Below are positions 28,543 through 53,170 of a stretch of DNA of 64,000 nt, in pieces (the first letter of the stretch is position 1; every line of letters starts with the position of its first letter). The notes beneath the pieces were generated by a model that ran no database searches, had not been told where the DNA came from, and saw only the letters and a program-made list of their open reading frames with translations. A program made the translations under genes and the position numbers. The stretch comes from Lentzea tibetensis (lineage in GTDB: Bacteria > Actinomycetota > Actinomycetes > Mycobacteriales > Pseudonocardiaceae): the NCBI RefSeq assembly GCF_007845675.1, contig NZ_VOBR01000033.1:1-64000 (forward strand), given 5' to 3'.

Positions 28543-32439
<3,897 letters not shown>

Positions 32440-32452
32440 TTGTTGGGTAGTT

Positions 32453-32497
32453 GAAACGGCCCCCGGAGCCTCCCGCTCCGGGGGCCGTTTCGTTTGT
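32453..32497 (+). terminator. rho-independent terminator after rpoC
   Basis: A 17-bp perfect stem (32453-32469 with 32475-32491; GAAACGGCCCCC.../...GGGGGCCGTTTC) with a 5-base loop is followed by GTTTGTG. Confidence 0.92.
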
Positions 32498-32515
32498 GCT
32501 TGGGGTTTTCGTGGT

Positions 32516-32649
32516 GGGGTGGGGAGGTCCTCGCTGATCACCTCACGGTCGCCCGATTTCTGAGTCCCCGTCAAGGCGAAAAGCGTGCCTTGACGGGGAC
32601 TCAGAAATCGGGCAAGGCTGCGCCTGATCAGCGAGGACCTCCCCACCCC
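32516..32649. repeat. nested palindromic element, copy 1
   Basis: The outer arms 32516-32540 and 32625-32649 are a perfect 25-bp inverted repeat (…GAGGTCCTCGCTGATCA / TGATCAGCGAGGACCTC…). The inner arms 32551-32577 and 32587-32613 are a perfect 27-bp inverted repeat (GCCCGATTTCTGAG… / …CTCAGAAATCGGGC) with a 9-base loop. A 10-base and an 11-base segment separate the two stems, forming an internal loop. It begins 25 bases after the rpoC terminator stem. Copy 2 is at 52608-52740, with compensated differences. Confidence 0.9.
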
Positions 32650-33286
32650 CGGCCCTTCGGATGCTTGGGATCATTTGGCTGCCGGTTTGGGCTCGGGGGC
32701 CGCGCCCGGTTGGCAGTGCGTGGGTTGGGAGTGCGGCGGGCGCTCTTTATCTTTTGGTATCTGCCGGTTTTCGCTGTGCTCTCTTGGTTCGTGCCGGTTT
32801 CGTCGGGCTCTTTGGTTCGTGCCGGTTGGTTCGTGCTCTCTTGGCGTCTGCCGGTTTCGATGTGCACGCCTTCGCTTCTGCGGGCGCGGAATTGTCGGTG
32901 CGGGCTGGGAGCATGGAATCGGGGGGTTCTCACGTGCGGGGGACGCCTGCGTGAGCGCGGCCAGCCCAGGTTCGAGTCGCGCAGTGTGGCTCGGCGAGCC
33001 CACGTCAGGCGGCCAGCCCGGCTGCTGCGCCCATGCGCTCGACTCGACGCTCCGGCCTGAATGAGCCCGCGCCTCGGCCTCGGCGAGCACACCTCGGCCA
33101 GCCATGCCTCAGCGAGCACACCTCGGCCAACTAGGCGTCGGCGAGCACCTGCGGCCAACCACGCGCAGCCCGGCGGGCTGGCGTGGGTGTGCGGGGCGCG
33201 GTGGTTTCCACCTGGGAGCAGCACCCCCTGCGGTGCGAGGCTTAGAGCGGTGGCGGTGCGGTGTCCGAGAAGCGGCGGCGGGGCCG
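32650..33286. repeat. non-coding repeat island downstream of rpoC
   Basis: No convincing gene. 32650-32815 is nearly identical to 52741-52910. It contains ~30-bp tandem repeats starting TGCCGGTT at 32762, 32792, 32820 and 32849, with GTGCTC and CTTGGTTCG inside the unit. A 66-base module at 32891-32956 (core TCGGGGGGTTCTC and GGGGACGCCTGCG) recurs twice in the second island. 33080-33150 has short repeats of CGGCGAGCACNNC and CACCTCGGCCA. Long GC-driven open frames cross this region on both strands but show no recognisable domain. Confidence 0.75.
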
Positions 33287-52535: not shown

Positions 52536-52572
52536 AGAAGGGCCCTGGAGCTTTGCGCTCCAGGGCCCTTCT
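52536..52572 (+). terminator. rho-independent terminator after rplO
   Basis: A perfect 16-bp stem, 52536-52551 with 52557-52572 (AGAAGGGCCC…/…GGGCCCTTCT), has a 5-base loop and is followed by GCTTGTG. Confidence 0.9.
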
Positions 52573-52607: not shown

Positions 52608-52740
52608 GGGGTGGGGAGGTCCTCGCTGATCACCAGAGGTCGCCATAGTTCTGAGTCCCCGTCAAGGCGGAAAAGCTGCCTTGACGGGGACTCAGAACTA
52701 TGGCCAGGCTGCGCCTGATCAGCGAGGACCTCCCCACCCC
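52608..52740. repeat. nested palindromic element, copy 2
   Basis: Outer arms 52608-52632 and 52716-52740 are identical to those of copy 1 (25 bp, perfect). Inner arms 52642-52668 and 52678-52704 are again a perfect 27-bp inverted repeat (GCCATAGTTCTGAG… / …CTCAGAACTATGGC), with a 9-base loop. Relative to copy 1, three bases differ on each inner arm and all are complementary. It starts 36 bases after the rplO terminator. Confidence 0.9.
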
Positions 52741-53170
52741 CTGCCCTTCGGATGCTTGGGATCATTTGGCTGCCGGTTTGTGCTCGGGGGCCGCGCCCGG
52801 TTGGCGGTGCGTGGGTTGGGAGTGCGGCGGGCGCTCTTTTCTTTTGGTATCTGCCGGTTTTCGCTGTGCTCGCTTGGTTCGCGCCGGTTTGGCTGGTGCT
52901 CGCTTGGTTCGTGCCGGTTGGGGTGTGGCCCGCCCTCGCTTCTGCCGGTTGGGAGGTGGGTCCCCTGGCGCGCTGGCTTCGCTTCGCTCGCGGGAGCCAC
53001 GTTGTGCCGCAGGAGTTGCCCACTGGCGCACCCCAGTGCCGTGCTCGGCCACGCGAGCATCGCTTCGCTGCCTGAAGTAGTGGGTTGGTGCGGTTCAGGG
53101 GCGGGGAGTGTCGGTGCTGGCTGAGAGCATCGACTCGGGGGGTTCTCTTGTGCGGGGACGCCTGCGTGAG

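Follow-up and report, generated by a model that had tools for sequence, protein, structure and literature searches.

Two copies of a long nested palindrome, lying at 32516..32649 and 52608..52740 of the window (the whole stretch of 64,000 nt of Lentzea tibetensis DNA analysed here), belong to a dispersed family in which the stems change in sequence from copy to copy and the arms remain complementary. The family is defined by its architecture (a 25-bp outer stem, two mini-hairpins, a 27-bp inner stem and a conserved tip stem) and by its high copy number; its members stand mostly at the 3' ends of genes, orthologous sites are found occupied, empty or with remnants, copies are mosaic, and relatives were found on a plasmid and in tyrosine-recombinase-bearing islands of Nocardia. 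The explanation tentatively preferred, held with slightly less than even confidence, is a non-autonomous dispersed element that would be recognised at its folded tip and whose arms would be kept complementary mainly by arm-templated copying and by conversion between copies.

All parts of both copies are given on the + strand. In copy 1 the left arm of the outer stem (25 nt, 32516..32540), in which 16 of the 25 pairs never vary among 24 copies of the same genome, is followed by a left junction mini-hairpin, CC(TCAC)GG (32541..32548, 2 pairs invariant in the 24 copies), and by the left arm of the inner stem (27 nt, 32551..32577), which consists of a fast-varying basal stretch of 19 nt and the conserved tip GTCAAGGC. 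The apical loop GAAAAGCGT (32578..32586) leads into the right arm of the inner stem (27 nt, 32587..32613), a right mini-hairpin, GGC(TGC)GCC (32616..32624, 3 pairs invariant in the 24 copies), and the right arm of the outer stem (25 nt, 32625..32649). Beyond it lie a tail common to the aligned own-genome copies (32650..32780, end approximate) and an imperfect tandem array of ~28-30-nt units containing CTGCCGGTTT (32750..32868). The same order is seen in copy 2, with the outer stem at 52608..52632 and 52716..52740, the left mini-hairpin CC(AGA)GG at 52633..52639, the inner stem at 52642..52668 and 52678..52704, the loop GGAAAAGCT at 52669..52677, the right mini-hairpin GGC(TGC)GCC at 52707..52715, and the conserved tail with the first part of the tandem array at 52741..52880 (end approximate). 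As two mini-hairpins occupy the junction, the fold is a closed four-arm structure.

A sequence-only reading of the window had described an identical, perfect outer stem and a perfect inner stem with a 9-nt loop in both copies, and every element of that description held: the outer arms are complementary at 25/25 positions and the inner arms at 27/27 in each copy, and the differences at inner positions 4, 5 and 7 (C, G and T against A, T and G) are compensated on the opposite arm in 3/3 cases. The two mini-hairpins, the conserved tail of ~130 nt, the tandem array of ~28-30-nt units and the further copies go beyond it. Folded as single-stranded DNA, both strands of both copies reach z values of -16.5 to -17.9, with 0/200 shuffles as low. 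The placement just behind terminators was likewise found as described, with 24 nt between the end of the terminator hairpin (32491) and the outer stem in copy 1 and 35 nt (hairpin end at 52572) in copy 2; the hairpin upstream of copy 1 (32453..32491, + strand) is an intrinsic terminator after rpoC and a neighbour outside the element. The upstream genes are rpoC (copy 1) and rplO (copy 2) by family scan, the rpoC match scoring below the curated cut-off because the gene piece is partial.

The own genome (G000) is a draft of 105 contigs, and its copy counts refer to scored candidates among the matches listed. A first look with a 301-nt query turned up 116 candidates; 40 of these were scored, and 78 matches were obtained, reverse-strand self-matches counted. 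The covariance search proposed in the earlier reading, run with strict filters and a model built from 24 own copies, found the element in 9/61 genomes searched (own genome counted). In the own genome 52/52 scored candidates match the model, 34 over its full length and 18 cut by contig ends; 19/52 lie at most 7 nt from a contig end (some ends being inferred from a match start at base 1 or 2), a position that agrees with an assembly broken off at the repeat or hairpin; two such pieces may together make up a single copy. GAAAAGC-type tips were counted 45 times and the backward control pattern 0 times, and the loop AAAAAGAC replaces GAAAAGC in 9/46 own copies. Among the 46 own copies listed there are 21 different basal 19-mers, nearly all still complementary. 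One further own-genome copy (L247, G000:C20:156259-156283) has the same architecture with other outer and inner stems and perhaps represents a second subfamily.

A closer look at the 24 own copies showed that 98.9% of the stem cells are paired, with 142 double-sided cells against 40.8 in shuffles (0/500 as high), and RNAalifold predicts nearly the same fold from the own copies unaided. In the inner stem 648/648 cells pair, 111 of them compensated and only 2 uncompensated on a single side, both G.T. Pairwise difference averages 0.34 and 0.33 for the basal 19 nt of the two inner arms, 0.22 for the loop, 0.11-0.14 for the tail, 0.08-0.10 for the outer arms and 0.04 for the 8-nt tip stem; the middle of the stem behaves like unconstrained sequence except for pairing. 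A second set of 35 distinct stems, taken from 61 named-record copies with a 31-nt tip, gave 96.2% paired cells and 184 double-sided cells against 58.7 in shuffles (0/500 as high), and the complementarity is well supported in both data sets. The ratio of compensated to uncompensated cells is weaker in the second set (184 vs 39 single-sided or broken) than in the own inner stems (111 vs 2); 14 of the 39 are A.C or similar cells of one column, and in two rows (L105, L173) one arm is visibly broken. The six GTCAAG pairs are unvarying in the 35 stems, but the set was chosen by that motif. Among copies found by other routes, the last tip base changes with compensation (GTCAAC...GTTGAC in L263, GTCAAA...TTTGAC in L073). 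Further pair types are not clearly above shuffles in the 24 own copies (192/500) or in the 35 stems (61/500).

Because compensated changes can arise by template switching, they are by themselves weak evidence of function. Template switching predicts the pattern of the own genome, that is, multi-base and often transversional double changes with few intermediates. Double transversions make up 66 of the 111 compensated inner-stem cells and 2 cells are single-sided, so arm-to-arm templating, which the sequence-only reading had named as its alternative, fits these details better than stepwise selection on an RNA. Of the maintained structure that it had put first, the kept complementarity stands; selection on an RNA fits less well than templating, and single-sided cells are commoner in the second set.

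The position of the copies relative to genes bears on the same choice. The context of 47 own copies was assigned with a crude GC-based gene finder, and 0/47 lie inside a predicted gene. The upstream gene is on the same strand in 33/40 copies for which one was assigned, with 27 of these 33 within ~120 nt of its stop, and the flanking genes are convergent in 15/23 copies with both neighbours assigned. Such placement, together with the constant orientation at two orthologous sites (see below), would suit an RNA element of 3' UTRs, a nested hairpin transcribed with the upstream gene (or antisense) that protects, processes or insulates transcript ends and whose pairing is kept by selection. This explanation is nevertheless unlikely. 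The scarcity of intermediates in the 24 own inner stems, where no uncompensated cell other than the two G.T cells is seen, counts against it, as do the complete terminators that precede the rpoC and rplO copies. A strand test on 147 copies (33 of 180 with short flanks being left out) gave more A.C than G.T among the non-Watson-Crick cells of the + strand, 27 vs 11 in the inner and 128 vs 17 in the outer stem, an excess dominated by a few inherited polymorphisms; the 35 stems gave A.C 20 vs G.T 6, with 14 of them in one column. In 112 named-record loci convergence is weaker than in the own genome (20/58 with both neighbours assigned), and the stop near the copy is often that of the downstream, opposite gene. 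The upstream genes scanned (10/27) comprise rpoC, rplO, rpsA, sucB and a proteasome ATPase gene, and also a P450, a nucleotide-sugar dehydrogenase, one gene with a weak match to peptidylprolyl isomerase, and two that fell into no family. The earlier proposal of a placement after essential operons is thus correct for rpoC and rplO but too narrow: with P450, nucleotide-sugar dehydrogenase and family-less genes among the ten, essential operons are not the rule.

The orthologous sites revealed the element in several states. The end of rpoC was recovered in 15/16 Lentzea genomes and the 620 nt after it were judged by eye. The element is present at this site in 5/15 (G000, G013, G007, G001 and, with the right arm cut, G015) and missing from 9/15, and in one (G004) the sequence ends too early to tell. 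At the rplO site it is present in 4/15 (G000, G013, shown as far as the start of the right arm, G007 and G001), broken or cut by a contig end in 2/15 (G004, G006) and missing from 6/15; remnants are seen in 3/15, namely an outer stem minus the inner hairpin (G002) and right-hand pieces (G008, G015). The orientation relative to the gene is identical in every readable case at both sites. Stems at the rpoC site mostly resemble those elsewhere in the same genome: the G007 copy is identical to a copy of Lentzea aerocolonigenes (L171) and has the common inner stem of that species, and the inner stem of the G001 copy is also present elsewhere in L. waywayandensis. The sister genomes G001 and G015 have the same stem at this site. 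On the rpoC tree, in which 9/13 inner branches and most forks are open, the occupied sites cluster, with 2 changes against 4.5 in shuffles (2/500 as low). The sites may reflect either an old presence with concerted stem change or repeated insertion; the clustering, the common stem of G001 and G015 and the constant orientation mean that old vertical inheritance fits as well as mobility.

Other repeats were seen around these sites. A different large inverted repeat (GATTGGGGCTTGACyTk... / ...AAGCCCCAATC) follows rplO in three genomes without the window's element there (L284, L285, L288) and also adjoins copies of G024 (L042, L056). Other Lentzea have a companion module (CCTGGGGGCkCTGCCCCCAGACCCCCGGCAATCTGATC... 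and variants) in front of the hairpin (L259, L262-L264), and a similar module is present without a hairpin in L261. A tail-like block stands as a separate repeat with no hairpin adjoining in the related Lentzea G024 (L032, L036).

Copies of the own genome are also mosaics. Among 30 complete own copies all four gametes of the two commonest types occur in 32/55 module pairs, a pattern that points to exchange between copies and to which recurrent change could add. The left and right outer dinucleotides match in 23/30 complete copies and are mismatched in 7/30, and these seven speak against strict pairing of the outer stem. Uncompensated arm changes, whose frequent occurrence the sequence-only reading had cited as an argument against a maintained structure, are rare in the own inner stems but are found in the outer arms of these seven copies.

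The same reading had also counted absence from every other genome against a maintained structure; the element is present in other Lentzea and in other genera, and neither of the two arguments applies in the form given. Nested palindromes of this design, with other stems and the common tip GTCAAn-GAAAAGC-nTTGAC, are found throughout several other Lentzea genomes and, here and there, in Nocardia islands, Haloechinothrix, a Prauserella plasmid and a few viral contigs. A narrow tip pattern matched 112 stretches in named genomes, 10 of them titled as non-Lentzea: four from Nocardia species, one from Haloechinothrix halophila, one from a Mycobacteriaceae MAG and a further four from Nocardia sp. NRRL S-836, the last four being counted as Lentzea (G008). 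A relaxed pattern was found in 7/397 genomes of the order and in 1/396 of a phylum sample, the own genome. In other genera the tip-motif loci fold into nested palindromes whose stems are different (six folded, later nine rows); all nine non-Lentzea rows (9/9) fold at -101 to -142 kcal/mol, two of them being one Prauserella sequence and three near-identical Nocardia, with the MAG copy, cut by a contig end, left out. The copy adjoins a tyrosine-recombinase gene in three Nocardia. In the one Nocardia island scanned, a homologue of DpdA (deoxypurine DNA modification; L093:5195-6526) stands beside the hairpin, with a tRNA gene upstream. Two copies with the same orientation lie on the Prauserella marina plasmid pPmarDSM45268 and point towards genes annotated as a bifunctional primase/polymerase and a single-stranded DNA-binding protein, with several genes between.

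Similarity searches of phages with one Lentzea copy and of plasmids with the window copy gave no match, and a search of plasmids with a Nocardia copy gave one, in Prauserella. Two narrower pattern scans of viral sequences were empty; relaxed patterns, in two further scans, matched 19 and 51 stretches, with some overlap between the two sets. Taken as a partial control, the 19 include a single stretch (L318) that folds below -70 kcal/mol, although viral GC is lower and the energies are not strictly comparable. Four of the 19 (L312:4029-4057, L313:272-300, L311:204-232 and L318:1989-2019, GC 45-53% in the stretches) hold nested hairpins with tips closely similar to those of Nocardia and are apparent relatives; in L312 the hairpin has a terminase large-subunit gene on one side and a DUF4326 gene on the other. 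Another viral stretch (L325) also forms a longer stem. A different recurrent viral hairpin, TTGTCAAGCGGAAAGGCTGCTTGACAA (L336:10767-10791, L343:7244-7268, L333:4408-4432, L365:316-340 and others), has similar T/C-rich runs on both sides (TTCCTTCC and variants) and is closed by an outer stem.

According to the preferred explanation, the folded single strand (or a cruciform) would be recognised at its tip by a putative trans-acting factor, which would spread or use the element. The arms would need only to pair, and it would be mainly template switching (DNA synthesis templated by the other arm), together with conversion between copies, that restores pairing, so that the middle of the stem could drift fast and yet stay complementary. 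Template switching does not predict a conserved tip stem or the same architecture in distant genera, and for this reason a tip-recognising factor and a history of spread are inferred. These same features weigh on an explanation by template switching as a mere by-product, in which a quasi-palindrome is perfected and rewritten, ectopic conversion spreads the variants, and there is neither function nor dedicated factor. The likeness of the stem middle to unconstrained sequence agrees with such a process, and template switching is reported to create and maintain hairpins and to be able to restore perfect ones in replication (PMC8794818); it is still quite improbable, as it leaves unexplained the near-invariant tip stem within the own genome, the conserved mini-hairpins and the tip-motif matches on nested palindromes in other genera.

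The broader possibility, itself rather doubtful, is that of a structure-defined element almost free in sequence, the arms of its nested hairpin being rewritten in concert by mutual templating and its conserved tip being read by a putative hairpin-recognising factor common to actinobacterial chromosomes, integrative elements, plasmids and some phages. Several observations count against the preferred explanation: the clustering of occupied rpoC sites, the common stem of G001 and G015 there, the constant orientation and the 39 uncompensated cells found in the 35-stem set, and further the outer arms mismatched in 7/30 complete own copies, the lack of a PF01797 match in the own genome, the variation of the loop (0.22), the presence of the relaxed tip in 1/396 phylum genomes and the further pair types near shuffles.

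The sequence-only reading knew of no described element with such an architecture, and searches of an open-access library found none. With Rfam 15, window positions 32300-33000 (copy 1) gave 8 matches up to E = 1, none of which reached the gathering score, and six related loci gave only a tRNA up to E = 0.1; a known structured RNA was rejected, with no match at the gathering threshold in copy 1 or the six loci. REP sequences and REPINs with TnpA-REP (RAYT) resemble the window's element as dispersed extragenic palindromes in many copies. REPs, however, are short, whereas the window's element is a nested 25+27-bp palindrome of ~134 nt with a conserved tip and no Y1_Tnp match. Folded single-stranded REP DNA is described in PMC8266576 as the substrate of a co-evolving TnpA-REP transposase, and a conserved GTAG motif next to the palindrome is a mark of REP elements. 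The Y1_Tnp transposase family (PF01797) had 0 matches in the draft own genome, with the control positive in 5/14 known genomes, and a REP/RAYT element was rejected. ERIC sequences are long palindromic non-coding intergenic repeats in many copies, and these and MITE-like repeats are alike in this to the window's family, whose stems, by contrast, have diverged through compensated changes and are different along most of their length from one species to another. No MITE-type target-site duplication was readable by eye when empty and occupied sites were compared, and the right boundary enters the tandem arrays. Long perfect complementarity with sequence change is found in the inverted repeats of PMC8794818 and in palindromes of Nematomorpha mitochondria (PMC6649704); those cases are stems of RNA genes and palindromes within coding genes, whereas the window's element is a dispersed family with a common tip motif.

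PMC11541004 describes Frpo promoters that fold on single-stranded DNA, one kind upstream of ssb, and the window's family resembles such Frpo/ssi sites in having TTGAC within a folded stem and an ssb gene nearby on the Prauserella plasmid. An initiation site of this type (promoter or priming site), borne on single-stranded DNA and scattered from plasmids and integrative elements into Lentzea chromosomes, could draw on the -35 core TTGAC in the tip stem and on the two plasmid copies directed at the primase/polymerase and SSB genes, but is very improbable: a -10 box (TAnnnT at spacing 15-19 from TTGACn) was found in 0/147 copies on either strand against ~4 expected from shuffles, many chromosomal copies stand at gene 3' ends, and many own copies face convergent genes. 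A single-stranded DNA promoter was accordingly rejected.

The copies of L. tibetensis provide a natural series of hairpins in one genome that differ in sequence and still pair (the 21 basal 19-mers among the 46 copies listed). With so many different and nearly all complementary stems side by side, how perfect palindromes change without broken intermediates, by selection or by template switching, becomes directly testable. The series is also a warning that compensatory change alone is no proof of a functional RNA. The tip conserved across genera and types of replicon, for its part, points to an undiscovered hairpin-recognising factor.
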